Of a DNA stretch of 64,000 nt, positions 14,048 through 24,238 are shown piece after piece. Each line of letters starts with the position of its first letter. Within the stretch, counting starts at the first letter, position 1. Source of the stretch: Splendidivirga corallicola (GTDB taxonomy: Bacteria; Bacteroidota; Bacteroidia; Cytophagales; Cyclobacteriaceae); NCBI GenBank assembly GCA_030442035.1, contig JAUJEA010000001.1, positions 124,001 through 188,000 of the forward strand, written 5' to 3'. Made by a program: the position numbers and the translations under genes. The notes beneath the pieces are model-generated. The model made no database searches and was not told the DNA's origin. It worked only from the letters and a program-made list of their open reading frames with translations.

Positions 14048-15058
14048 CTACAACCGCTCTCTCAAATTATAGACTTCTGTCATTTTTCTGATCAGGTCTT
14101 TTGATTCCTGGAAATTCAATGTTTGTTGTCCATCCGAATAGGCTCTCTCAGGTACATGATGAGATTCATAGATAACACCATCCGCCCCAGCCATAATGCT
14201 TGCCAATGCAATGGCCTCAACATGGTGACGGATACCAATACCATGTGAAGGATCAGCAACCACCGGTAGGTGAGTCTTCTCTTTCAGAATAGGAATCGCA
14301 TTCAGGTCCATTGTATTCCTACTCGCCGTTTCATAGGTTCTGATACCTCTTTCACACAGGATGAGTTTTTCATTACCTCCCGAAAAGACATACTCAGCAG
14401 AATAGAGTAATTCATCAATAGATCCGGAGATTCCCCGTTTGATCATCACTGCTTTATCTACCTTGCCCAGTTCGTCCAATAAATTAAAGTTTTGGGTATT
14501 CCTGGCTCCCACTTGAAAAATATCCACATAGTCGTGCATTTCTTCAATTTGTGAAACCTGCATTACCTCCGTGATAATCTTGATACCAGCTTCTTTGGCC
14601 GCGTCATGCCATTGTTTTAGTCCTTCAATACCTAATCCTCTGAATGAATATGGGGAGCTCCTTGGTTTATAAACACCTCCCCGCATGATCTTTACACCAT
14701 TTTCCTTGAGGTGATCAATGGTTTGACATATTTGATCTTCTCCTTCAATGGAGCAAGGGCCAGTCATAATAGCAAATTTACCTGATTCGATGGTCACACC
14801 ATCTCCCAAATCTATAGAAGTTGGTCTTACCTTCCATTTCTTGGAAACCAATTTATAACTATCAGAAACAATATGGATATCTGAAATGCCTTCCATATGC
14901 CCAATTTCCCTTATATCAAATTCGGCCTTACCAATACCAATGAGATAATCACCTTTTTGGGTTTTGACAGGATTGGTTTTGTATTTTAATTGGTTGATCT
15001 TATCGATAATCTCTGTTCTCTGCTCAGCGGTAATGTCTTTTTGTAGTTGAACTATCAT
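14048..15058 (-). CDS. aroF: 3-deoxy-7-phosphoheptulonate synthase (DAHP synthase, type I-beta)
   Basis: 336 residues. It condenses phosphoenolpyruvate and erythrose 4-phosphate in the first step of the shikimate pathway. The first about 70 residues form a ferredoxin-like regulatory domain (MIVQLQKDITAEQRTEI). The barrel follows with MTGPCSIEG, MRGGVYKPRSSPYSFRGLG, QVGARNTQN, MIKRG and VVADPSHGIG, all hallmark PEP, phosphate and metal site segments. No chorismate mutase domain is fused. It is the last gene of the trp group, feeding chorismate into Trp synthesis, and would share the leader's Trp control. Confidence 0.95.
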   Translation of the reverse strand: MIVQLQKDITAEQRTEIIDKINQLKYKTNPVKTQKGDYLIGIGKAEFDIREIGHMEGISDIHIVSDSYKLVSKKWKVRPTSIDLGDGVTIESGKFAIMTGPCSIEGEDQICQTIDHLKENGVKIMRGGVYKPRSSPYSFRGLGIEGLKQWHDAAKEAGIKIITEVMQVSQIEEMHDYVDIFQVGARNTQNFNLLDELGKVDKAVMIKRGISGSIDELLYSAEYVFSGGNEKLILCERGIRTYETASRNTMDLNAIPILKEKTHLPVVADPSHGIGIRHHVEAIALASIMAGADGVIYESHHVPERAYSDGQQTLNFQESKDLIRKMTEVYNLRERL

Positions 15059-15089
15059 AATAGTTAGGAATTAGAAATTGCGAATTATG

Positions 15090-15115
15090 AATTACGAAAA
15101 TTGTTCGTCGTAATT
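15090..15115. repeat. AATTACGA palindrome in the trpA-aroF spacer
   Basis: AATTACGA (15090-15097), ten-base loop, TCGTAATT (15108-15115). The same arms and loop length recur at 17371-17396 between trpF and trpB. Confidence 0.6.
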
Positions 15116-15120
15116 TGTAA

Positions 15121-15921
15121 TTAATCATTGTTTCTGATTGATTTAATGAACTTATTTATATCTGTTTTTAAATCCGTTGATTCCGAAAGTAATTTTATAA
15201 ACGCGCTTCCAATAATGGCTCCGGAGGCGTAATCACAGGCTTTTGCAAAAGTTTCATGGTTGGAAATACCAAAGCCAATCATCGTTGGGTTCTTCAGTTG
15301 CATGGTCTTCACGCGTTCGAAGTATTCAATCTGTTCTGTAGCTATACCACTTTTTGCACCGGTAGTACTTGCTGATGAGACCATATAAATGAACCCATTA
15401 GTATTGGCATCAATCTCTTTGATTCGTTGTTCTGATGTTTGTGGAGTGATGAGGAAAATGTTATAAAGCCCATATTGATCAAACAATGTTTTATATTCCT
15501 CCATGTACTCCTGCATAGGTAAATCCGGAAGGATCAAGCCATCAACACCTACCTTCTGGCAATCCTTACAAAAATCCTCAATACCATATTGTAATACAGG
15601 ATTTACGTAACCCATCAGAATAATAGGCGTGTCGATTTTTGATCTTATTCCTTGTAATTGACTGAACAATAATTTCAGGCTCATACCATTGTCCAATGAT
15701 TGCTGATTGCTTTGCTGAATGGTGGGGCCATCGGCAATAGGATCGGAGAATGGAATGCCGATTTCAATAATATCAGCACCAGCTTCCTGGAGATACTCAA
15801 GGATAACAGCTGTATCATTTAAACCGGGAAACCCTGCACTAAAATAAACGGACAAAACATGGTCCTTTTTCTCTTCAAAAACCTTATCTAATCTATTTGA
15901 CTTTTCTATTATAGTGTTCAT
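15121..15921 (-). CDS. trpA: Tryptophan synthase alpha subunit
   Basis: 266 residues. It cleaves indole-3-glycerol phosphate to indole and glyceraldehyde 3-phosphate and passes indole to TrpB. The TIM barrel shows the catalytic Glu in DIIEIGIPFSDPIADGPTIQ and the catalytic Asp in GVDGLILPDLPMQE, and phosphate-binding GFGISNHE and GAIIGSAFIK. Full length for the family. Spacer to trpB contains an octamer tandem repeat and two palindromes; see the separate entries. Confidence 0.97.
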   Translation of the reverse strand: MNTIIEKSNRLDKVFEEKKDHVLSVYFSAGFPGLNDTAVILEYLQEAGADIIEIGIPFSDPIADGPTIQQSNQQSLDNGMSLKLLFSQLQGIRSKIDTPIILMGYVNPVLQYGIEDFCKDCQKVGVDGLILPDLPMQEYMEEYKTLFDQYGLYNIFLITPQTSEQRIKEIDANTNGFIYMVSSASTTGAKSGIATEQIEYFERVKTMQLKNPTMIGFGISNHETFAKACDYASGAIIGSAFIKLLSESTDLKTDINKFIKSIRNND

Positions 15922-15929
15922 GTTCTCAA

Positions 15930-15961
15930 GTGTTGATGTGTTGAGGTATTGATGTTAGATT
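15930..15961. repeat. Octamer tandem repeat upstream of trpA
   Basis: Four degenerate 8-base units in a row: GTGTTGAT, GTGTTGAG, GTATTGAT, GTTAGATT. Similar octamer runs occur before trpB (17305-17344) and after the 28638 gene. Confidence 0.55.
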
Positions 15962-15983
15962 TCAGTATCCTGTTAATTGTTAG

Positions 15984-16010
15984 TCCTCCCCCTTCCCCCT
16001 CCTGAGGGGG
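15984..16010. repeat. CCCCCTC(A/C)GAGGGGG-type G/C-rich hairpin, trpB-trpA spacer
   Basis: Two C-rich runs precede CCTGAGGGGG. The reverse complement (CCCCCTCAGGAGGGGG followed by AAGGGGGAGGA) matches the element at 19101-19129 between trpD and trpC, in the opposite orientation. Confidence 0.6.
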
Positions 16011-16082
16011 ACATTGCTTGTAGTTGATCATTTATCCATATCCTTTAAAATTCAATATGTATCAACATGACAAATCAGAACT

Positions 16083-16114
16083 AATTAATAATTACTCATT
16101 ACTAATTATTAATT
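16083..16114. repeat. AT palindrome next to the trpB stop
   Basis: A perfect 12-bp inverted repeat AATTAATAATTA (16083-16094) / TAATTATTAATT (16103-16114) with an 8-base loop lies 3 bases past the trpB stop codon (16117-16119). Confidence 0.65.
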
Positions 16115-16116
16115 AT

Positions 16117-17298
16117 TTAATACCCTCCCCATTTAATATAAGTACCAAGATCTTTATCACCTCTGCCAGAGAGGTTAAGTACCACCACATCATCGGATTT
16201 AAATTCAATGAATTCAAGACCAGCCAATGCATGGGCACTTTCGATGGCAGGAATAATACCTTCCAATTTGCTCAATAACAAACCTGCTTCCATGGCTTCC
16301 GAGTCGGTGGCACTATAGAAATGTGCCCTGCCCGATTCAAATAAATGTGCATGTACCGGACCAATACCAGGATAATCCAAACCTGCTGAAATGGAATAAG
16401 GCTCGATCACTTGCCCGTCTTCAGTTTGCATCAACAATGTTTTACTACCATGCAACACGCCCGGATTTCCCAATGCAGTTGTGGCCGCCGATTCATCAGT
16501 GTCTACACCTTTACCAGCTGCCTCCACCGCGATGAGTTTTACATCCTTTTTGTCCAAATAATGATAAAAGGCACCGGCTGCATTACTACCACCACCCACA
16601 CAGGCTATAATGTAATCAGGATCTTCGCCCCCTGTTTTTTCCAGTAACTGGGCTTTCATTTCCTCACTAATGACTGATTGAAATCTGGCCACCATATCCG
16701 GATATGGATGAGGGCCTACCACTGAACCAATAATGTAATGTGTATCTACCGGGTGGTTAATCCAATGACGCATAGCTTCATTGGTGGCATCTTTGAGTGT
16801 TTTATTTCCTGAATGTGCCGGAACAACTTTTGTCCCAAGAATTCGCATGCGTTCAACGTTGGGCTGTTGCCTTTCCATGTCCAAAGCACCCATATACACA
16901 ATGCATTCCATACCCATCAATGCGCAAACAGTAGCAGTAGCTACTCCATGCTGACCAGCTCCTGTCTCAGCAATGATCTTTTGTTTACCAAGTCTTTTTG
17001 CCAATAAAATCTGTCCGATGGTATTATTAACTTTGTGTGCTCCCGTGTGATTGAGATCTTCTCTTTTCAGAAAAATTTTAGCACCGTATTTTTCAGACAA
17101 ACGTTTCGCGAAATAAAGAGGAGTCGGCCTACCAACATAATCGCTCAATAACTCATTGAACTCTTCTTGAAAAGAATCCTCCTCAATGATCTTCAAATAT
17201 TGTTGTCTGAGTTCCTCTACATTGGGATATAACATTTCGGGAATATAAGCGCCTCCAAAACTTCCGTAATATCCCTTTTCATCTACGTTATAAGTCAT
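16117..17298 (-). CDS. trpB: Tryptophan synthase beta subunit
   Basis: 393 residues. It joins indole and serine to make tryptophan with [12 protein letters not shown] carries the PLP-binding Lys (about residue 85), GGGSNAAG is the phosphate-cup, EAAGKGVDT and [10 protein letters not shown] flank the active site, and [11 protein letters not shown] is the normal N-terminus. Typical TrpB1 length. It is preceded by an octamer repeat that starts 6 bases before its ATG and by an AT-rich palindrome spacer. Confidence 0.97.
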
Positions 17299-17304
17299 TT
17301 TATA

Positions 17305-17344
17305 AGTGTTAAAGTGCTAAAGTGTTAGAGTGTTTAAGTTTTAA
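17305..17344. repeat. Octamer tandem repeat directly upstream of trpB
   Basis: Five units with exact 8-base period: AGTGTTAA, AGTGCTAA, AGTGTTAG, AGTGTTTA, AGTTTTAA. On the trp (sense) strand these read as TTAACACT-like units ending just before the ribosome entry region of trpB. Confidence 0.7.
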
Positions 17345-17370
17345 AATTGTAAAGAGAATAACGAATGAAT

Positions 17371-17396
17371 AATTACGAATTCGGTCAATCGTAATT
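17371..17396. repeat. AATTACGA palindrome in the trpF-trpB spacer
   Basis: AATTACGA (17371-17378), ten-base loop, TCGTAATT (17389-17396). Same arms and loop length as 15090-15115; AT-rich near-repeats (ATTCGTAATT) continue to about 17415. Confidence 0.6.
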
Positions 17397-17465
17397 CGTA
17401 ATTTAAAATTCGTAATTAATTCAAAATTCATAGCTCAAAATCAAAAATCATAAAGAGACTGAAAC

Positions 17466-18131
17466 CTAATTCGATGACATTAATATTTTTTTCAACTTTT
17501 TTAATTTTTCCACCTCTTTCAATCCAGGTTCCAATTCAAACCTACTATTGACGTCGATGGCGTGTATATTCAATCCTTTCAATTGAGCGATCTCGCTTAT
17601 GTTTTCAAGATCAATCCCACCGCTAAGAAAAAATGGCACCTCGTTGTCATATTGCTTCAAAATACTCCAGTCAAAAGCAATACCATTTCCTCCATAATCT
17701 TTTCCTTTAGTGTCGAATAAAAAGAAATCCACATGAGGCTTGTAAGGTTCCAGCACGTCAAAATCAAATTGCTCACCCACTGAGAAAACTTTAATAACAG
17801 TCAGTCCTTCCTTTTTTAATGTTCTGCAATCTTCTATTGGCTCGTTTCCATGCAACTGAACGGCATCTAATGAAAACACCTTTACTTTTTCTCTGATGCT
17901 TTCTATATCCTCATTTACAAATACACCGACTCGTTTGATATTGGAAGAAAGTTCATCAAGAAATGATCCGGACAAATGATCTGCCACAAAACGAGGAGAT
18001 TTTGAATAGAATATAAAACCCATATAATCCGGAGCAAGGCCCATTACTTCCTGAATGTTTTCAGGATGCTTCATGCCACAAACCTTCAATTTTATTTTTC
18101 TTTGACTCATTTTTCCGGATTCAGTCTCCAT
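17466..18131 (-). CDS. trpF: Phosphoribosylanthranilate isomerase
   Basis: About 221 residues. It isomerises PRA to CdRP in Trp synthesis. KLKVCGMKHPENI holds the catalytic Cys, GFIFYSKSPRFV, AVQLHGNE, FLFDTKGKDYGGNG (catalytic Asp) and FFLSGGIDLENI follow in barrel order. ATG 18131 (28 bases after trpC) and ATG 18110 are both possible; the second begins MSQRKIKLKVCG, closer to family N-termini. The first codon of the longest frame (18134) is GTG and unlikely. Confidence 0.95.
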   Translation of the reverse strand: METESGKMSQRKIKLKVCGMKHPENIQEVMGLAPDYMGFIFYSKSPRFVADHLSGSFLDELSSNIKRVGVFVNEDIESIREKVKVFSLDAVQLHGNEPIEDCRTLKKEGLTVIKVFSVGEQFDFDVLEPYKPHVDFFLFDTKGKDYGGNGIAFDWSILKQYDNEVPFFLSGGIDLENISEIAQLKGLNIHAIDVNSRFELEPGLKEVEKLKKLKKILMSSN

Positions 18132-18159
18132 CACTATTCGTCGATCACCTTGAATTTAT

Positions 18160-18987
18160 CTATTTTATGGTTTCAACAGGTTTAGTACTTCCCTGCTTCA
18201 ATACTTTCAATTCATGAATAAAATCATAACAAGCTTTTTCCGGGCGGCTATGATGCATAAAATGCTCTCCCATCAAAAAACCCTGAAAGCCATGATTACT
18301 TAATTCTACTATTTTCTGCGGATCTGAAATACCACTTTCGGAGACCTTGATATATTGCTCCGGTATCAGTGGTGCCAGCCGTATGGAGTTCTCAATGCTT
18401 ACCTCGAAAGTCTTCAAATTCCTATTATTCACACCTATCAGGTCCACACTTTCAATGATGTTGCTCTGAAGCTCCTCTTCATTATGCACCTCCATCAACA
18501 CTTCCAGGTCAAAAGATTTTGCAAATTCAGCCAGTTGTTTTAATCGTTCTGGAGTTAAAGCCGCCGCTATCAAAAGAATCACATCTGCACCAATAGATTT
18601 TGCCTCTATGATCTGATATTCATCAATAATAAAGTCCTTTCTTAAAATCGGGCAAAAATTGAATTTTCTGGCTGTCTTGAGGTCTTCGTTAGTACCCCCA
18701 AAGAATTCATAATCTGTCAACACAGATAGGGCAGAAGCCCCAGCCTGCATATAACCTATAGAAGTTTTTTCAATGGACACATACGGATTAATGTTTCCCT
18801 TTGAGGGTGATTTACGTTTGATCTCAGCAATAATACCGGACTTGTCAGGTCTTAGAATATACTTTTTTAAAGACACAGGTTTACCAGTAAAATAGGTACT
18901 TTGTTCTAACAGTTTTGTTGGAAAAAGTCCTTTGCGCTCTTCAACTTCTTTTTGTTTATGCAATAAAATCTTATCGAGTATATGCAT
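18160..18987 (-). CDS. trpC: Indole-3-glycerol phosphate synthase
   Basis: 275 residues. It closes the indole ring from CdRP. Markers are IIAEIKRKSPSKGNI (catalytic Lys), ALSVLTDYEFFGGT, PILRKDFIIDEYQI, EVLMEVHNEEEL, GVNNRNLKTFEV and VSESGI. Monofunctional, not fused to TrpF as in enterics. Starts at ATG 18987 after a spacer that holds a G/C-rich hairpin and an octamer-like TTAGTTTT run. Confidence 0.97.
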   Translation of the reverse strand: MHILDKILLHKQKEVEERKGLFPTKLLEQSTYFTGKPVSLKKYILRPDKSGIIAEIKRKSPSKGNINPYVSIEKTSIGYMQAGASALSVLTDYEFFGGTNEDLKTARKFNFCPILRKDFIIDEYQIIEAKSIGADVILLIAAALTPERLKQLAEFAKSFDLEVLMEVHNEEELQSNIIESVDLIGVNNRNLKTFEVSIENSIRLAPLIPEQYIKVSESGISDPQKIVELSNHGFQGFLMGEHFMHHSRPEKACYDFIHELKVLKQGSTKPVETIK

Positions 18988-18989
18988 CC

Positions 18990-19031
18990 TTTAGTTTTTA
19001 GTTTTAAGTCTTGAGTTCTTAGTTTTTTGAC
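18990..19031. repeat. TTAGTTTT octamer-like run before trpC
   Basis: Degenerate 8-base units (TTAGTTTT, TAGTTTTA, AGTCTTGA, GTTCTTAG) run from just upstream of the trpC start. A similar run lies at 28876-28907 after another gene. Confidence 0.45.
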
Positions 19032-19100
19032 TAGTCCTTTTTTTCATATTTGAGTAAAATACTACAGACTTATAATTCTGCTATAAGCCATCAACATATT

Positions 19101-19129
19101 TCCCCCTCAGGAGGGGGCTAGGGGGAGGA
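19101..19129. repeat. G/C-rich hairpin in the trpD-trpC spacer
   Basis: CCCCCTCAGGAGGGGG forms a nearly perfect hairpin and is followed by CTAGGGGGAGGA. It is the inverted counterpart of the element at 15984-16010. Confidence 0.65.
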
Positions 19130-19145
19130 TAAAATCAAAAACCAT

Positions 19146-20132
19146 TTAATTACTTATCAATTTCTTGAACGTAGCCAAAGCTTTACCTGATTCAAGGGAC
19201 TCCCTGGCTGCTGCTAAGGAATCCTCAAGACTTAATCCTTTGCCGCAATGAATGGCCAACCCGGCATTGGCAACGACCACTTCTTTCTGGGCTTTGGTTC
19301 CTTCACCATTTAATATATTAGTAAATATCCTGGCAGATTCCTCCACTGTTTCCCCTCCGTAAAGCTCTTCAGGTGCCCAGCGATTCAAGCCAAGGTCCTG
19401 AGGCTGTAATATCTTTTCATGTCCGTTTGAGATCATTTTAAAAGCACCGGTTAAAGACACTTCATCATATCCGTCAAGCGAATGGAGCACCACAAATTTC
19501 TTATCAGTCTTTTGATGGAGATAGGCGTATAATCGAGCCAGCTCCAGACTAAACACACCAACCAATTGTTTTTTAGGAAAGGAAGGATTTACGATCGGGC
19601 CAAGCATATTGAAAAAAGTCTTCACACCGAGCTCCATTCTTATTGGAGCAACATTTTTCATAGCAGGGTGGAATAAAGGAGCATGTAAAAAACAAATTCC
19701 CGCTTCCTCAATACTCTTTTTCAACTTGTCTTTGTCATTGGTGAATTCATATCCAAAATGTGCCAACAAATTGGATGATCCGCAAACCGATGAAACACCA
19801 TTATTACCATGCTTGGCAACACGTTGCCCCGCTCCTGCTACAACAAAGGATGAAAGCGTGGATATATTAAAAGTATTTTTTGCATCACCACCGGTACCAC
19901 AAAGGTCAATAGCATCGTACTCCTCAATTTCCAATGGGATGCAAAGCTCAAGCATAGCATCTCTAAAACCCTCAAGTTCCTCAACTGTGATGCTTCTCAT
20001 CAGATATACGGTAAGAAAGGCTGCTACCTGACTGTTGTTGTATTGGCCCTGGGCCAGATTCATTAGAATTTCTTTGGACTGTTTTTTGTCCAAAGATTTA
20101 TATTCAAATAAATTATTTAGGACTGCTTTCAT
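19146..20132 (-). CDS. trpD: Anthranilate phosphoribosyltransferase
   Basis: 328 residues. It transfers phosphoribose from PRPP to anthranilate. IDLCGTGGDAKNTFNIST is the PRPP/Mg loop, RVAKHGNNGVSS the anthranilate/PRPP loop, FNMLGPIVNP follows, and GYDEVSLTGA carries the second Mg-binding segment. Family length and standalone, not fused to TrpG. Spacer to trpG is about 50 bases and includes a GTGTTGATG octamer-like motif. Confidence 0.97.
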   Translation of the reverse strand: MKAVLNNLFEYKSLDKKQSKEILMNLAQGQYNNSQVAAFLTVYLMRSITVEELEGFRDAMLELCIPLEIEEYDAIDLCGTGGDAKNTFNISTLSSFVVAGAGQRVAKHGNNGVSSVCGSSNLLAHFGYEFTNDKDKLKKSIEEAGICFLHAPLFHPAMKNVAPIRMELGVKTFFNMLGPIVNPSFPKKQLVGVFSLELARLYAYLHQKTDKKFVVLHSLDGYDEVSLTGAFKMISNGHEKILQPQDLGLNRWAPEELYGGETVEESARIFTNILNGEGTKAQKEVVVANAGLAIHCGKGLSLEDSLAAARESLESGKALATFKKLISN

Positions 20133-20182
20133 TTTTTCAATTGTTGAAGTATGAGGTGTTGATGTTCATCTATTCCAGTGGC

Positions 20183-20755
20183 TTATTTTTTTAACCAATT
20201 CTCTATCATTTTTGGTCCATGTTCTGTTAAGATCGATTCCGGATGAAATTGTACGCCTTTAACATCCAGTTGCCTATGACTGAGTGCCATCACATTGCCA
20301 TGTTCATCTTCAGCGGTTACTTCCAGGTTGCCATTCATTGTATCTTTTAATACCGACCATGAATGATATCTACAAGCCATAAAAGATTTTGGTATGCCTT
20401 CAAAGATCGGTTCATCCTGTTTGATGATCTTTGTCTCATTAGCAACACCATGCAACACAATGGGCATATTGAAAATTTCTGCTCCAAAAGCCTCCGCTAT
20501 ACCCTGGTGCCCCAGGCAAACACCCAAGATTGATTTAGATGCGGCATATCTCTTTATTAAATCCTGCATAATACCCGCTTCCGATGGAATTCCAGGTCCC
20601 GGAGAAAGCAATATCTTATCATATTTTTCTACTTCCTCAATGGCAATTTTATCATTCCGAAAAATGTCCATTTGCTCTCCATATCCCAATTCATTGATGA
20701 TATGCACCAGGTTATAGGTAAATGAATCGTAATTATCTAAGACTAATAGTTTCAT
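20183..20755 (-). CDS. trpG: Anthranilate synthase glutamine amidotransferase subunit
   Basis: 190 residues from ATG 20755 (MKLLVLDNYDSF). It hydrolyses glutamine and channels ammonia to TrpE. LLSPGPGIPSEAG, the nucleophile elbow GVCLGHQGIAEAFG (Cys) and VQFHPESILTEHG (His, Glu of the triad) are intact. A longer in-frame start at 20821 would begin inside the neighbouring hairpin repeat and was rejected. Could also serve PabA function. Separated from trpE by an inserted four-helix-bundle gene. Confidence 0.96.
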   Translation of the reverse strand: MKLLVLDNYDSFTYNLVHIINELGYGEQMDIFRNDKIAIEEVEKYDKILLSPGPGIPSEAGIMQDLIKRYAASKSILGVCLGHQGIAEAFGAEIFNMPIVLHGVANETKIIKQDEPIFEGIPKSFMACRYHSWSVLKDTMNGNLEVTAEDEHGNVMALSHRQLDVKGVQFHPESILTEHGPKMIENWLKK

Positions 20756-20761
20756 ATTGGT

Positions 20762-20817
20762 TTTAGGTTTCGGGTCACAGGTTTCAGGTTGATAACTTCC
20801 AACCTGAAACCTGCAAC
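20762..20817. repeat. Flanking hairpin repeat, copy 1 (trpG side)
   Basis: Contains the perfect 11-bp inverted repeat GTTTCAGGTTG (20780-20790) / CAACCTGAAAC (20799-20809) with an 8-base loop, then CTGCAACT. It matches copy 2 (21192-21259) closely and shares the block CACAGGTTTCAGGTTG. Together they bracket the four-helix-bundle gene. Confidence 0.75.
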
Positions 20818-21183
20818 TCACCTACTTTTTAGGTATTTGATGAAAGTTGCAATACGTTTTGAAAGTATCAGTAACTCTTCATGTTTTTCTTTATAAAATG
20901 ATTCTTCAATAAATTCAGCTCTAAATAGGGTATAAAGTTGGCTTCTTAACTCACCAGCAGAACCCTTTGCATATTTTAAAAATCTTATGAAATCTTTATT
21001 GTTATCATATTCAAATCCTTCTGCTATATTACTTGCAATTGATAGTGCAGCCCTTCTCACCTGATCTTTCGTTCCAAAGTCTTTTTCAAATCTCGTCAGT
21101 CCCGAAATCTCAAATACATCGACTGCTATTTCACTTGCCTTTTTCCATATTTCCAAATCTTCAAATCTCTTAATACTTCCCAT
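20818..21183 (-). CDS. Four-helix-bundle protein (23S rRNA intervening-sequence / S23 family)
   Basis: 121 residues, all-helical. FEDLEIWKKASEIAVDVFEI, then RRAALSIASNIAEGFEYDNNKDFIRFLKYAKGSAGELRSQL and a final helix match the IVP/S23 family. Members are encoded in rRNA intervening sequences or as stand-alone genes, and they resemble Avd proteins of diversity-generating retroelements; no reverse transcriptase is present here. It interrupts the trpE-trpG junction and is bracketed by two near-identical hairpin repeats. It is probably a late insertion that remains in frame with operon transcription. Function unknown. Confidence 0.85.
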   Translation of the reverse strand: MGSIKRFEDLEIWKKASEIAVDVFEISGLTRFEKDFGTKDQVRRAALSIASNIAEGFEYDNNKDFIRFLKYAKGSAGELRSQLYTLFRAEFIEESFYKEKHEELLILSKRIATFIKYLKSR

Positions 21184-21191
21184 AGCTTTAT

Positions 21192-21259
21192 TAGTTTCAG
21201 GTTTAAGGCCACAGGTTTCAGGTTGATAACATGCAACCTGAAACTTGTAACCTGCAACT
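21192..21259. repeat. Flanking hairpin repeat, copy 2 (trpE side)
   Basis: Contains GTTTCAGGTTG (21215-21225) / CAACCTGAAAC (21234-21244) with an 8-base loop, then an extra TTGTAAC and CTGCAACT. It is homologous to copy 1 at 20762-20817 in the same orientation, and its end abuts the trpE stop. Confidence 0.75.
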
Positions 21260-22673
21260 AACTTATTTCTTCCGCCATTTTTATGGCTTGTCTCAACGCT
21301 CCTAGTTTATTATGAACTTCTTGCAGTTCACTATTGATATCAGACTTATCAACAATTCCGGCACCAGCCTGGTAAAATAGTTGGTTGTCTTTACTCAAAA
21401 ATGAACGGATCATAATGGCATGGTTAAAATCACCATCAAAACCCAGAAAGCCTATGGCTCCCCCATAATAGCCACGATTGGTATTTTCATATTTATTAAT
21501 TAATTGAAGTGCCATATGTTTTGGAGCACCTGAAAGTGTACCAGCCGGAAAAGTGTCTGCCACAATCTTAATCGGAGAAGTTCCTTCTTTTAACTTGCCA
21601 GTCACTTTAGATACTAAGTGAATCACATGGGAGTAGTATTGAATCTCTTTAAAGGTTTCAACTTCCACATCTTCACAATTCCTGGACAGATCATTTCTGG
21701 CCAGGTCAACTAGCATGACATGCTCTGAATTCTCTTTGGGATCATCGTATAATTTTTGAGCCAGCTCAGCATCAGCCTGATCATGTCCGGTTCTTTTGAA
21801 AGTTCCCGCAATTGGATAAATAATGGCCTCACCTTTTTTAACTACAATCTGTGCTTCGGGAGAGGATCCAAAAATTTTATAGCTGCCGTAATCAAAATAA
21901 AAAAGATATGGTGAAGGATTAATTGATCTAAGTGCCCGGTACACGTTGAACTCATCTCCCTTGAAAGCCGATTGAAATCGCCGTGATAAAACAATTTGAA
22001 AGACATCACCACGATGGCAGTGTGATTTACCCTTGGCTATGATATCCAGGAACTCCTCATCGGTTAAATTAGAGTGTTCCTCATTTTCGATATTAAAGGA
22101 ATAACCAGGGTGATTTTTATTATCGATCAAAGAAGCCACCTGATCAATGCCTGATCCGTTCTGCTCGCCTTCTAAATGATGCTCAAAAATGTGTAATTCA
22201 TTCTTGAAATGATCAATGGCTATGACATAACGATATACATTGTAACAAATCTCAGGAATCCTTTCTTCTCCATTTTCTTTAATTTCTACTTCAACATCTT
22301 CGAAATACTTAACGGCATCAAAGGCCATATAACCGAATAGCCCGTTGTTGATGAAATCAAACTCGTTTTCACTCACTTCAAATGCACTTGAGAATTTGCT
22401 TAAAGCATCTACCGCATCTCTCTTTTCCTCAAGTGTTTCCTCCGTTATAGTTCCATCGGGAAATTGCTGTTTTAACTGGTTGTTGCTCAATATAAAACTG
22501 GCAATAGGTTCGAAACAGATATATGAAAAACTGTTTTCGTTACCATGGTAGTCGGAGCTTTCCAGCATGATTGGATTCATGTATCTGTCCCGTAGTTTCA
22601 GATAAATGCTTACCGGTGTCACTGTATCGGCCAGTAATCTTTTATGGACAGAATTAAGTGTAAATTTTTTCAA
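21258..22673 (-). CDS. trpE: Anthranilate synthase component I
   Basis: 471 residues. It makes anthranilate from chorismate and ammonia. LESS (residues 37-40) is the Trp feedback-binding motif. IVLSRRFQS, GSSPEAQIVVKKGEAIIYPIAGT, HVMLVDLARNDLSR, GTLSGAPKHMAL and YQAGAGIV line the chorismate site. The start is TTG 22673: upstream in frame is a stop, and the next ATG (residue 32) would cut the conserved N-terminus. The gene begins 27 bases after the leader terminator, so expression depends on readthrough of that attenuator. Confidence 0.97.
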   Translation of the reverse strand: MKKFTLNSVHKRLLADTVTPVSIYLKLRDRYMNPIMLESSDYHGNENSFSYICFEPIASFILSNNQLKQQFPDGTITEETLEEKRDAVDALSKFSSAFEVSENEFDFINNGLFGYMAFDAVKYFEDVEVEIKENGEERIPEICYNVYRYVIAIDHFKNELHIFEHHLEGEQNGSGIDQVASLIDNKNHPGYSFNIENEEHSNLTDEEFLDIIAKGKSHCHRGDVFQIVLSRRFQSAFKGDEFNVYRALRSINPSPYLFYFDYGSYKIFGSSPEAQIVVKKGEAIIYPIAGTFKRTGHDQADAELAQKLYDDPKENSEHVMLVDLARNDLSRNCEDVEVETFKEIQYYSHVIHLVSKVTGKLKEGTSPIKIVADTFPAGTLSGAPKHMALQLINKYENTNRGYYGGAIGFLGFDGDFNHAIMIRSFLSKDNQLFYQAGAGIVDKSDINSELQEVHNKLGALRQAIKMAEEIS

Positions 22674-22700: not shown

Positions 22701-22728
22701 AAAAAAGCTCACTGTGAACAGTGAGCTT
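22701..22728 (-). terminator. trp operon attenuator terminator
   Basis: On the minus strand AAGCTCACTG / CAGTGAGCTT (plus 22719-22728 and 22705-22714) form a perfect 10-bp stem with a 4-base loop and a U-run from 22706 to 22701. It stands between the leader peptide and trpE. Its loop region (22714-22720) can instead pair with 22765-22771. Confidence 0.92.
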
Positions 22729-22768
22729 GTATTAATCTATTTCTTTTAATTTACAAAGCTATTGTGTT

Positions 22769-22791
22769 CACTTAACTTGTTAAGTTAAGTG
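22769..22791 (-). promoter_or_regulatory. Leader hairpin 1:2 of the trp attenuator
   Basis: CACTTAACTT and AAGTTAAGTG form a perfect 10-bp stem with a 3-base loop. The 5' arm (minus strand 22791-22782) starts right after the third Trp codon, and the leader's stop codon (22780-22782) is at the loop. A ribosome stalled at the Trp codons would cover this arm and free the 3' arm and its extension (22765-22771, GTGAACA) to pair with the terminator (TGTTCAC). Confidence 0.85.
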
Positions 22792-22830
22792 CCACCACCA
22801 ATAGTTTATATGTAAATTGATCTTTCTCAT
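22780..22830 (-). CDS. trpL: trp leader peptide (16 residues, three tandem Trp)
   Basis: ATG 22830 opens a 16-codon frame encoding MRKINLHINYWWWHLT and ending TAA at 22780-22782. Three consecutive TGG codons (22792-22800) are a classical ribosome-stalling sensor for charged tRNA-Trp. The frame ends in the loop of the following hairpin, and an intrinsic terminator lies 52 bases further on, before trpE. Too short for normal gene calling. The peptide itself has no expected function beyond translation-coupled control. Confidence 0.9.
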   Translation of the reverse strand: MRKINLHINYWWWHLT

Positions 22831-22838
22831 TGAGGCTA

Positions 22839-22869
22839 CAATTATAGGAAAGGTTTTTTTAATTGCAAA
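22839..22869 (-). promoter_or_regulatory. Probable trp operon promoter (Bacteroidota type)
   Basis: On the minus strand TTTG (22869-22866), a 19-base spacer and TATAATTG (22846-22839) resemble the Bacteroidota -33/-7 boxes TTTG / TAnnTTTG with one mismatch. The leader ATG follows after only 8 bases, so the transcript would be nearly leaderless. A promoter further upstream cannot be excluded. Confidence 0.5.
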
Positions 22870-22953: not shown

Positions 22954-22984
22954 GGTGTCAGACATTTTTGGAATGTCAGACACC
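22954..22984. repeat. REP palindrome copy 1
   Basis: GGTGTCAGACATT, five-base loop, AATGTCAGACACC. The stem pairs except for one central A/A mismatch. It is followed by TTGATTC, as are copies 3 and 5. Confidence 0.85.
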
Positions 22985-23095
22985 TTGATTCCACAAAGCA
23001 CCAATATCTCCTTACCTGAATTTCTAGGACTGGAATTTTTAAAAGTCACAAAGAAAAGTTTCTATAATATCATTTTTAGGTAATTGAGATACTAA

Positions 23096-23126
23096 GGTGT
23101 CTGACATTTTGCAAATGTCTGACACC
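23096..23126. repeat. REP palindrome copy 2
   Basis: GGTGTCTGACATT, loop TTGCA, AATGTCTGACACC with one central T/T mismatch. It lies 406 bases before copy 4, its duplicate partner. Confidence 0.85.
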
Positions 23127-23155
23127 GATCCCTATTTAAGTTTTAAGCAAAAAAA

Positions 23156-23352
23156 TCAAAAAATGTTTTGCAATTCCATTAACTCTGCAAGACCATAAGA
23201 ATCCCCATATAAACTTTGCTTGTTAATATCTGAAAATTCTGCTGCTATATTTTGATTATATAAACCCTCTTTTTTTATCAATGTATTCTCTAAAAGATGA
23301 GAATTCCTAATCTTCCATTTTATTAACCAATCCGTCTTCAATGGGATTCTGA
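23156..23352 (-). pseudogene. Duplicated, decayed 3' end of the RAYT transposase
   Basis: Minus-strand sequence ending ...EGLYNQNIAAEFSDINKQSLYG... and MELQNIF matches the C-terminus of the intact transposase (EGLCDQNIAARFLDIDKQSFYS and MELKNIF). The match reaches back to the NPLKAGL region, but a one-base deletion shifts the frame inside it and no HUH domain is present. It sits 407 bases from its counterpart, as part of a tandem duplication that includes REP copies 1-2. An apparent 99-codon frame here (to 23455) runs on through REP copy 3 and is not a gene. Confidence 0.85.
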
Positions 23353-23359
23353 TAACACC

Positions 23360-23390
23360 GGTGTCAGACATTTTAGAAATGTCAGACACC
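23360..23390. repeat. REP palindrome copy 3
   Basis: GGTGTCAGACATT, loop TTAGA, AATGTCAGACACC with one central mismatch, followed by TTGATTC. Exactly 406 bases after copy 1. Confidence 0.85.
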
Positions 23391-23501
23391 TTGATTCCAC
23401 AAAACACCAATATCTCCTTACCTGAATTTCGAGGAATGGAATTTTTAAAAGTCACAAAGAAAAGTTTCTATAATATCATTTTTAGGTAATTGAGATACTA
23501 A

Positions 23502-23532
23502 GGTGTCAGACATTTTGCAAATGTCTGACACC
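23502..23532. repeat. REP palindrome copy 4 (perfect)
   Basis: GGTGTCAGACATT, loop TTGCA, AATGTCTGACACC. This copy is a perfect 13-bp hairpin. It lies 30 bases past the stop of the transposase gene and 406 bases after copy 2. Confidence 0.88.
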
Positions 23533-23562
23533 GGTTCTCATTTGAAGTTTTAAGCAAGAAAA

Positions 23563-24156
23563 TTAAAAGATATTTTTTAACTCCATCGGCTCTATTAAAC
23601 TATAAGAATCACTATAAAAGCTCTGCTTGTCAATATCCAAAAATCTTGCTGCTATATTTTGATCACATAAACCCTCTTTTTCTTTATCAATATATTCTCT
23701 GAAAGACGAGAATTCCCAATCTTCCATTTTCTCTACTAACCCGGCCTTTAAGGGATTTTGATGTATGTAGTGAAAACATACAATGGGATAATCATTATAT
23801 GGAGAGCTCAAAGTCAGGCATTTATATTTAGTCTTTTGCCTGAAAAGAGAGCCTGATCTATTTTCTTGCTTATTGATTGCCTTGGAATACGAACTTAGAA
23901 GCAATCTAAATCCATTTGAAAGTTGGTTAACAATCAAGCTTCCAACCCTAAAATTTTCTTGAGATCTTTTGTTGGCCATGACCAAAAAATGAAAATGGTT
24001 TGGCATCAAACAATAGGCTAATATCTCACAATTTTCCTGAACATGTATTTTAACTTTTTTAAGAAAATAAATATAATTATCCTGCTTTCGAAAGATGGTT
24101 TCCCTATTATTGCCCTGGTTATAAATGTGGTATAATTCACCTGGTATGAATTCCAT
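23563..24156 (-). CDS. REP-associated tyrosine transposase (RAYT, Y1/HUH)
   Basis: 197 residues. The N-terminus (ELYHIYNQGNNRETIF) and YCLMPNHFHFLV (HUH metal motif H54-F-H56) are followed by SYSKAINKQENRSGSLFRQ, where Y90 is the likely nicking tyrosine. The end HYIHQNPLKAGLVEKMEDWEFSSF is typical. RAYTs cut and join single-stranded REP hairpins; they are related to TnpA of IS200/IS605 but are usually not self-mobile. REP hairpins flank it (copies 3-4 downstream, copy 5 upstream). Intact, with no frameshift. Confidence 0.93.
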   Translation of the reverse strand: MEFIPGELYHIYNQGNNRETIFRKQDNYIYFLKKVKIHVQENCEILAYCLMPNHFHFLVMANKRSQENFRVGSLIVNQLSNGFRLLLSSYSKAINKQENRSGSLFRQKTKYKCLTLSSPYNDYPIVCFHYIHQNPLKAGLVEKMEDWEFSSFREYIDKEKEGLCDQNIAARFLDIDKQSFYSDSYSLIEPMELKNIF

Positions 24157-24207
24157 AGCCGTCTTAACTTTATTTCAGATTAATTTATTGGATTAAATTA
24201 AATACCT

Positions 24208-24238
24208 GGTGTCAGACATTTTTGGAATGTCAGGCACC
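24208..24238. repeat. REP palindrome copy 5, overlapping the end of the aminotransferase gene
   Basis: GGTGTCAGACATT, loop TTTGG, AATGTCAGGCACC. The minus-strand reading of this palindrome supplies the last codons GGT GCC and the TGA stop (24230-24232) of the aminotransferase gene. It also lies upstream of the RAYT start. Confidence 0.85.

Follow-up and report, generated by a model that had tools for sequence, protein, structure and literature searches.

The locus raises the question of how the trp operon of Splendidivirga corallicola is controlled, and whether the short stretch ahead of trpE works as a ribosome-mediated attenuator, as an initial annotation had proposed. In the window (the whole 64,000-nt stretch of DNA that was analysed), a leader ORF with clustered Trp codons precedes the trp genes and is followed by a terminator, an antiterminator that excludes it and an overlapping 1:2 hairpin, and the arrangement is conserved. 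Classical ribosome-mediated attenuation, with tRNA-Trp charging as its signal, agrees with how the parts are ordered, with the genes that follow and with the alternative pairings conserved in relatives; with a probability of about 0.92 the element would be a transcription attenuator in which the ribosome senses charged tRNA-Trp. The element is real and well conserved, was correctly read in the initial annotation and belongs to an ordinary kind. The interest comes less from the window itself than from general features that its relatives show.

The genes from trpE, the first, to the DAHP synthase gene are presumed, from gene order and strand, to form one operon (Table 1). TrpE and TrpF are recognised with clear E-values, yet their scores lie under the cut-offs of their best models. 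The best named relatives of TrpE are found in Cecembia, Fulvivirga, Rufibacter, Cyclobacterium and unnamed Flammeovirgaceae, which points to Cytophagales. A gene for a four-helix-bundle protein (TIGR02436) stands between trpE and trpG, at window positions 20818-21183.

The element is read from the minus strand and begins with a promoter-like pair of boxes. The -7 box TATAATTG has one mismatch to TAnnTTTG, which counts against the attenuator reading, and the leader ATG, at 22830, lies 8 nt past it; where relatives show TTTG or TTG, a spacing of 18-20 between this motif and the box is commonest. The three consecutive Trp codons of the leader ORF occupy 22800-22792, and the 5' arm of the 1:2 hairpin (10 perfect bp, AAC loop, -10.1 kcal/mol when folded alone) starts at the base right after the third TGG; this local fold is better than 100 of 100 mononucleotide shuffles. 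In the outer extension of the hairpin, AATTTACA (22818-22811) pairs with TGTAAATT (22755-22748) and CTATTG (22804-22799) with CAATAG (22764-22759), so that codons of the leader ORF ahead of the Trp codons pair past segment 2 and, in an RNA free of ribosomes, the Trp codons would lie inside one long 1:2 hairpin. The antiterminator joins 22771-22765 to 22720-22714 over 7 bp, and a further helix, of AGCTT (22760-22756) with AAGCT (22728-22724), was absent from the initial annotation. The terminator arms (22728-22719 and 22714-22705) form 10 bp, 5 of them GC, and run into six T at 22706-22701, 27 nt ahead of the trpE TTG start at 22673. The promoter-like TTTG-N19-TATAATTG, the 16-codon leader ending in WWWHLT, the perfect 10-bp hairpin straight after the third Trp codon, the 10-bp terminator with its U-run 27 bases before trpE and the 7-base antiterminator had all been picked out beforehand; in the sequence and the folds they lie where they had been placed, the first with the mismatch given above and the last lengthened by the AGCTT/AAGCT helix.

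Table 1. Features of the trp leader region and the genes downstream (window positions)
Feature	Position	Strand	Detail	Basis
Promoter-like boxes, Bacteroidota sigma-A type	22839..22869	-	TTTG 22869-22866, 19 nt, TATAATTG 22846-22839	sequence
Predicted 5' UTR, 4 nt	22831..22834	-	predicted TSS ~22834	box-to-TSS spacing of 4-5 nt in passages of PMC6847099, and sequence
Leader ORF	22780..22830	-	MRKINLHINYWWWHLT, 16 codons to 22783, stop TAA 22782-22780	sequence
1:2 hairpin (protector)	22769..22791	-	CACTTAACTT-AAC-AAGTTAAGTG, arms 22791-22782 / 22778-22769	fold
Outer extension of 1:2 hairpin	22748..22818	-		MFE fold
Segment 2, antiterminator 5' strand	22765..22771	-	GTGAACA	fold; GTGAAC kept in most A1 rows
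Segment 3, antiterminator 3' strand	22714..22720	-	TGTTCAC, inside terminator 5' arm and loop	pairing in relatives
Segments 3:4, intrinsic terminator	22701..22728	-	AAGCTCACTG-TTCA-CAGTGAGCTT	fold; covariation in relatives
trpE, first operon gene	21258..22673	-	TTG start	NCBIfam TIGR00564, E 3e-124, 415 bits, below model cut-off 518
Remaining presumed operon	14048..21183	-	four-helix-bundle gene, trpG, trpD, trpC, trpF, trpB, trpA, DAHP synthase	NCBIfam

On the attenuation model, RNA polymerase would start about 4 nt ahead of the leader ATG, and the ribosome would load almost at the 5' end of the RNA. With ample Trp-tRNA the ribosome would reach the stop codon in the 1:2 loop and cover segment 2, leaving 3:4 free to form the terminator, and trpE would go unread. 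With scarce Trp-tRNA the ribosome would stall on one of the three Trp codons before hairpin 1 and block 1:2; segment 2 (GTGAACA plus AGCTT) could then pair with segment 3 before segment 4 exists, and with the antiterminator formed the polymerase would continue into trpE-G-D-C-F-B-A and the DAHP synthase gene. Should translation fail altogether, the extended 1:2 hairpin would be expected to form, making termination the default.

Folding bears on the order of these steps. With the RNA ending at 22713 and a ribosome on the second or third Trp codon, the antiterminator fold is obtained (-13.1 kcal/mol). Adding the terminator 3' arm makes the terminator the fold of lowest energy at all three stall positions, a point against the model; as the antiterminator is lowest in energy only before that arm exists, its success would depend on its forming earlier, which the classical model demands too. 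In the window alone, 10 of 100 shuffles do as well as or better than the antiterminator duplex, and 49 of 200 do so for the outer stem; neither is significant, and support for both comes from relatives.

For the comparison with relatives, regions ahead of trpE were drawn from 80 named loci, from anonymous relatives and from members of the class. The criteria were fixed: a leader beginning with ATG, of at most 45 codons and containing WW or WxW, and, within 12-110 nt, a terminator of at least 8 bp, 4 GC and 6 T. A Trp-pair leader with a terminator was found at 145 of 176 loci, the window included, versus 0 of 1760 dinucleotide shuffles (ten per locus); these figures supersede an earlier count under other criteria, in which WW was found at 109 and WWW at 94 of 129 loci, with 0/2580 shuffles each. 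Loss of the leader, its Trp codons and the hairpins from relatives had been named in the initial annotation as one outcome that would speak against it, and in the comparison with relatives the reading did not fail. By group, the unit is present in 33 of 35 named groups and 62 of 86 anonymous genera, where unnamed assemblies form groups of their own and the named and anonymous sets may share species; a check for exact duplicates returned one pair. A class-wide draw gave a TrpE match at the chosen threshold in 49 of 158 genomes, so the conservation figures apply to genomes with a similar TrpE. Trp is kept while other leader residues drift (MKTIANKYWWWHS..., MTFSMTQQAWWWPYG..., MINQQVNIWRWQN..., MNTKHFYSVWHWYF...), in the patterns WWW, WW, WRW, WHW, WYW, WCW or WLW.

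The 31 loci without a unit under the criteria count against the reading. In thirteen of them a short ORF with a Trp pair is present but falls short in terminator, start codon or length (L002, L014, L022, L068, L091, L099, L119, L121, L135, L141, L147, L163 and L171); the remaining 18 were counted as having no leader, although one, L127, has a WW ORF that seems unrelated. Six rows had been dropped: L081, the window's own place, for which the window was used; L095, whose contig is shared with L008; L153 and L155, repeats of L120 and L121; and L023 and L157, with too short an upstream sequence. L033, identical to L032 in the upstream 200 nt, is counted among the 176 and excluded from the promoter-box test onward, and L170, a second trpE-like place in one genome, was retained. 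Two metagenome records (L048, L069) are titled Spirosoma fluviale, labels that may be wrong; the trp leader of L048 is nearly identical to Algoriphagus leaders. A search of the S. corallicola genome with the pattern TGGTGGTGG gave 130 matches versus 101 in a control, and was uninformative because flanking N were ignored.

These counts bear on whether the terminator is merely the end of an upstream transcript, with the leader ORF incidental to it. Intrinsic terminators alone are common, and a transposase gene lies upstream on the same strand; a promoter-like box nevertheless stands directly ahead of the leader, Trp leader and terminator recur together at 145 of the 176 loci and in none of the 1760 shuffles, and the terminator 5' arm pairs with the conserved segment 2, all of which makes an incidental leader very improbable.

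The pairings were followed in alignment A1, 19 near-relative leaders hand-picked from 23 units. The terminator is 99.5% paired in A1, with 6 of its 10 pairs changed on both sides somewhere; 28 cells are changed on both sides versus 10.3 in shuffles, and the covariation score was reached by 0 of 500 shuffles. Further pair types in the terminator were no more numerous in A1 than in shuffles (198/500). The 7-bp antiterminator is paired in 91.9% of cells versus 24-57% when slid, and its five core pairs are standard in 95.7% across the 19 sequences. Its columns are highly conserved, so that within-column shuffles reach 89.9% pairing and 26 of 500 are as high as observed, which counts against it; only 3 cells in A1 are changed on both sides (5 of 500 shuffles as high). 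When the AGCTT/AAGCT pairs are added pairing falls to 78.4%, because this inner helix is 59.6% paired in A1. Unit by unit, no more than 5 of 100 shuffles equal the antiterminator duplex in 69 of 146 units. The 1:2 hairpin differs in length between loci, cannot be aligned and was for that reason scored by per-locus folds; its local fold is as seldom equalled (5 of 100 shuffles or fewer) in just 37 of 146 units, a result that also counts against the reading. The outer stem reaches the 5% level in 39 of 142 units, and outer pairing like that of the window occurs in near relatives, for example L003, L007, L020, L101 and L107.

Might the leader act chiefly through translation, by re-initiation or Rho access, with no need of an intrinsic terminator? 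Four loci (L002, L022, L091, L099) have a Trp leader with no terminator found under relaxed criteria, and five leaders begin at most 9 nt from a bTHX stop codon, as if re-initiating. Against them stands a canonical terminator that in the window carries a T-run 27 nt before trpE and in relatives covaries, and control through translation in place of termination is very improbable. Least probable of all is a non-ribosomal sensor (T-box, TRAP-like protein or Trp-binding RNA) governing the terminator, after the manner of Firmicutes, whose trp operons are controlled by T-box, TRAP-like or similar sensors: Rfam at gathering score gives no match in the window, a T-box is absent from the 13 Rfam matches at E up to 10 in a 351-nt stretch, the leader by eye has only four scattered GAG/UAG triplets, too few for a TRAP site, and none of these sensors requires a conserved Trp-rich ORF. 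On the evidence above, T-box, TRAP-like control, a plain read-out terminator and chance were rejected.

If the element is a ribosome-mediated attenuator, how new is it? Vitreschak et al. are said to have predicted such attenuators in Bacteroidetes/Chlorobi already in 2004. Beyond the lack of any Rfam match in the window at gathering score, the window reaches 29.3 bits with RF01692 (Bacteroid-trp), below the cut-off of 49, and 32.9 bits with RF00513 (Trp_leader; E 4e-5 in the 351-nt search), below the cut-off of 41. RF01692 gave no match at E up to 10 among the 150 of 2009 first-look candidates scored in the S. corallicola genome. Upstream of trpE it scored above cut-off in 8 of 20 loci tested, L112 and seven from genera that we take to be Flavobacteriia, and the other 12 gave no match above cut-off; with the window and 12 loci under its cut-off, this branch lies outside the reach of the curated model and would be missed in annotation at the curated Rfam cut-offs. 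The element resembles Bacteroid-trp in its place before trpE and its leader with adjacent Trp codons; the consensus hairpin of the printed alignment spans those codons, as the outer stem in the predicted fold of the window may do. It differs in scoring under that model's cut-off. Like the E. coli trpL type of RF00513, it follows the 1:2, 2:3, 3:4 scheme and has Trp codons at the base of hairpin 1; its predicted 5' UTR of ~4 nt has no Shine-Dalgarno sequence, whereas that of the E. coli trp leader is ~26 nt with one. The below-cut-off scores with both models mark the window as a divergent representative of a known kind of attenuator.

The initial annotation is supported in its reading of Trp-codon attenuation logic in this phylum, and overstated its newness outside Proteobacteria: such logic is not a first in Bacteroidetes, where RF01692 and the passages of PMC9723704 on attenuation already point to it. 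In the part of Weinberg et al. 2010 concerned with it, RF01692 is listed for Bacteroidetes (PMC2864571), while a passage of the same year still confines the demonstrated leader-peptide systems to Proteobacteria and Actinobacteria (PMC2965389). Passages on the Flavobacterium psychrophilum transcriptome report strong clues for leader-peptide attenuation ahead of amino-acid biosynthesis operons (PMC9723704). Those attenuators are alike in being of the leader-peptide kind and in serving amino-acid operons; they are unlike in that the main text of PMC9723704 lacks the string 'trp' and its passages are silent on tandems and near-leaderless leaders. Short ORFs reminiscent of leader peptides are described in a passage on Bacteroides (PMC7366714).

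Ribosome-mediated attenuation demands tight timing between ribosome and polymerase. To our knowledge Shine-Dalgarno sequences are generally lacking in Bacteroidota, so how the two are timed there is a question. The distance from promoter to leader was measured in 144 leaders, the first unit of each locus, by looking up to 100 nt from the ATG for TAnnTTTG without mismatch. Such a box was found in 109, with a median gap to the ATG of 10 nt, and in 82 it lay 4-14 nt ahead of the leader ATG, where the background farther upstream is 0.0036 such boxes per 11 positions. Among 276 larger ORFs of named loci that served as a control, with start codons that are first-ATG guesses, an exact box lies within 100 nt of 15, and for one of these the distance is 14 nt or less. 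The 35 leaders without an exact box include that of the window (one mismatch, gap 8) and those of three Rufibacter loci, so counted because the strict criteria select their second leader. By group, and taking any in-frame ATG, the gap is 3-14 nt in 22 of 33 named groups and 37 of 62 anonymous genera; in Hymenobacter, by exception, the gap is 20-32 nt or an exact box is missing from the nearest 40 nt. The suggestion in the initial annotation that the leader could be translated nearly leaderless suits the sequence of the window, and the arrangement proves common in relatives, as the 82 of 144 attest.

In promoters of F. johnsoniae deemed probable, according to the passages concerned, the box precedes the start site by 4-5 nt (PMC6847099), from which 5' UTRs of 0-10 nt are predicted for the 82 leaders; of the transcripts of such promoters, 87% have leaders longer than 10 nt (PMC6847099). 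Passages elsewhere show short leaders to be rare, putting leaderless transcripts at 5.5% in F. psychrophilum (PMC9723704) and leaders under 10 nt at ~3.7% in B. thetaiotaomicron (PMC7366714), and in these passages of the two papers attenuation and leaderless starts are not joined. We would give even odds to the proposal that leader-peptide attenuators of Bacteroidota are near-leaderless transcripts, with the promoter box so placed that the AUG emerges at or within ~10 nt of the 5' end, and that this stands in for the Shine-Dalgarno loading by which E. coli keeps ribosome and polymerase in step, the trp unit being doubled or moved behind bTHX in some lineages. A conserved attenuator with its ATG almost at the predicted transcript start offers a compact, testable model of timing. 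The near leader-free start, together with tandem copies in some relatives, is unusual.

Two Trp leaders, each with a terminator, were found at 7 of 176 loci: L020 (Fulvivirga marina) and L124 under strict criteria, L004, L006 and L012 (all Rufibacter) under relaxed criteria, and L126 and L130, where the second terminator was identified by eye. Each of the seven has a promoter box ahead of its first leader, and within 40 nt of the second leader there is no box even when one mismatch is allowed. Such tandem trp copies are natural experiments in series control. The mgtCBR attenuators of Salmonella respond to signals other than Trp. Like L020, L124 and Rufibacter, mgtCBR has two serial attenuators before one operon (PMC3641672), and it is unlike them in that its leader ORFs differ. 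No trp tandem is evident from the titles and abstract openings of the papers found on tandem attenuators with leader peptides.

At five loci the leader ATG lies next to the stop codon of a small gene whose protein contains MGKGDKK or MGRGDKK, with stop-to-ATG gaps of 3 nt (L109), 6 (L116), 9 (L117), -1 (L120) and 3 nt (L147). Two such proteins were checked, and both match 30S ribosomal protein THX above cut-off (TIGR04560). No exact promoter box was found within 100 nt at L109, L116, L117 or L120, although L117 has one with a mismatch. The adjoining position of these Trp leaders and the bTHX stop suggests co-transcription or re-initiation.

Candidate attenuators of other amino-acid operons were also encountered. 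The S. corallicola genome has a His-codon leader, MRSFSTHHYHHHTTCHQARC, followed by a terminator before hisG (L218), with a TAnnTTTG box 16 nt ahead of its ATG. Among 30 hisG regions a His-rich short ORF was present in 21, with a terminator found in 10 of those (counts that stand without a shuffle control), and such leaders before hisG make trp look like one case of a wider use. Leader ORFs with Thr/Ile codons precede aspartate-kinase genes at 6 of 30 loci, 2 of them with a terminator; none precedes the one aspartate-kinase gene, of three matches, that was scanned in the S. corallicola genome.

Just upstream of the attenuator promoter, a gene for a REP-associated tyrosine transposase (23563-24156; NF047646, 62.5 bits versus a cut-off of 80) is surrounded by copies of a REP-like palindrome, GGTGTCWGACATT-N5-AATGTCWGACACC, of which the window holds five with 0-1 mismatch at 22954-24238 and 100 shuffles hold none. 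Another ORF, at 23156-23455, resembles this transposase by eye at its C-terminal end and is perhaps a truncated copy of it.
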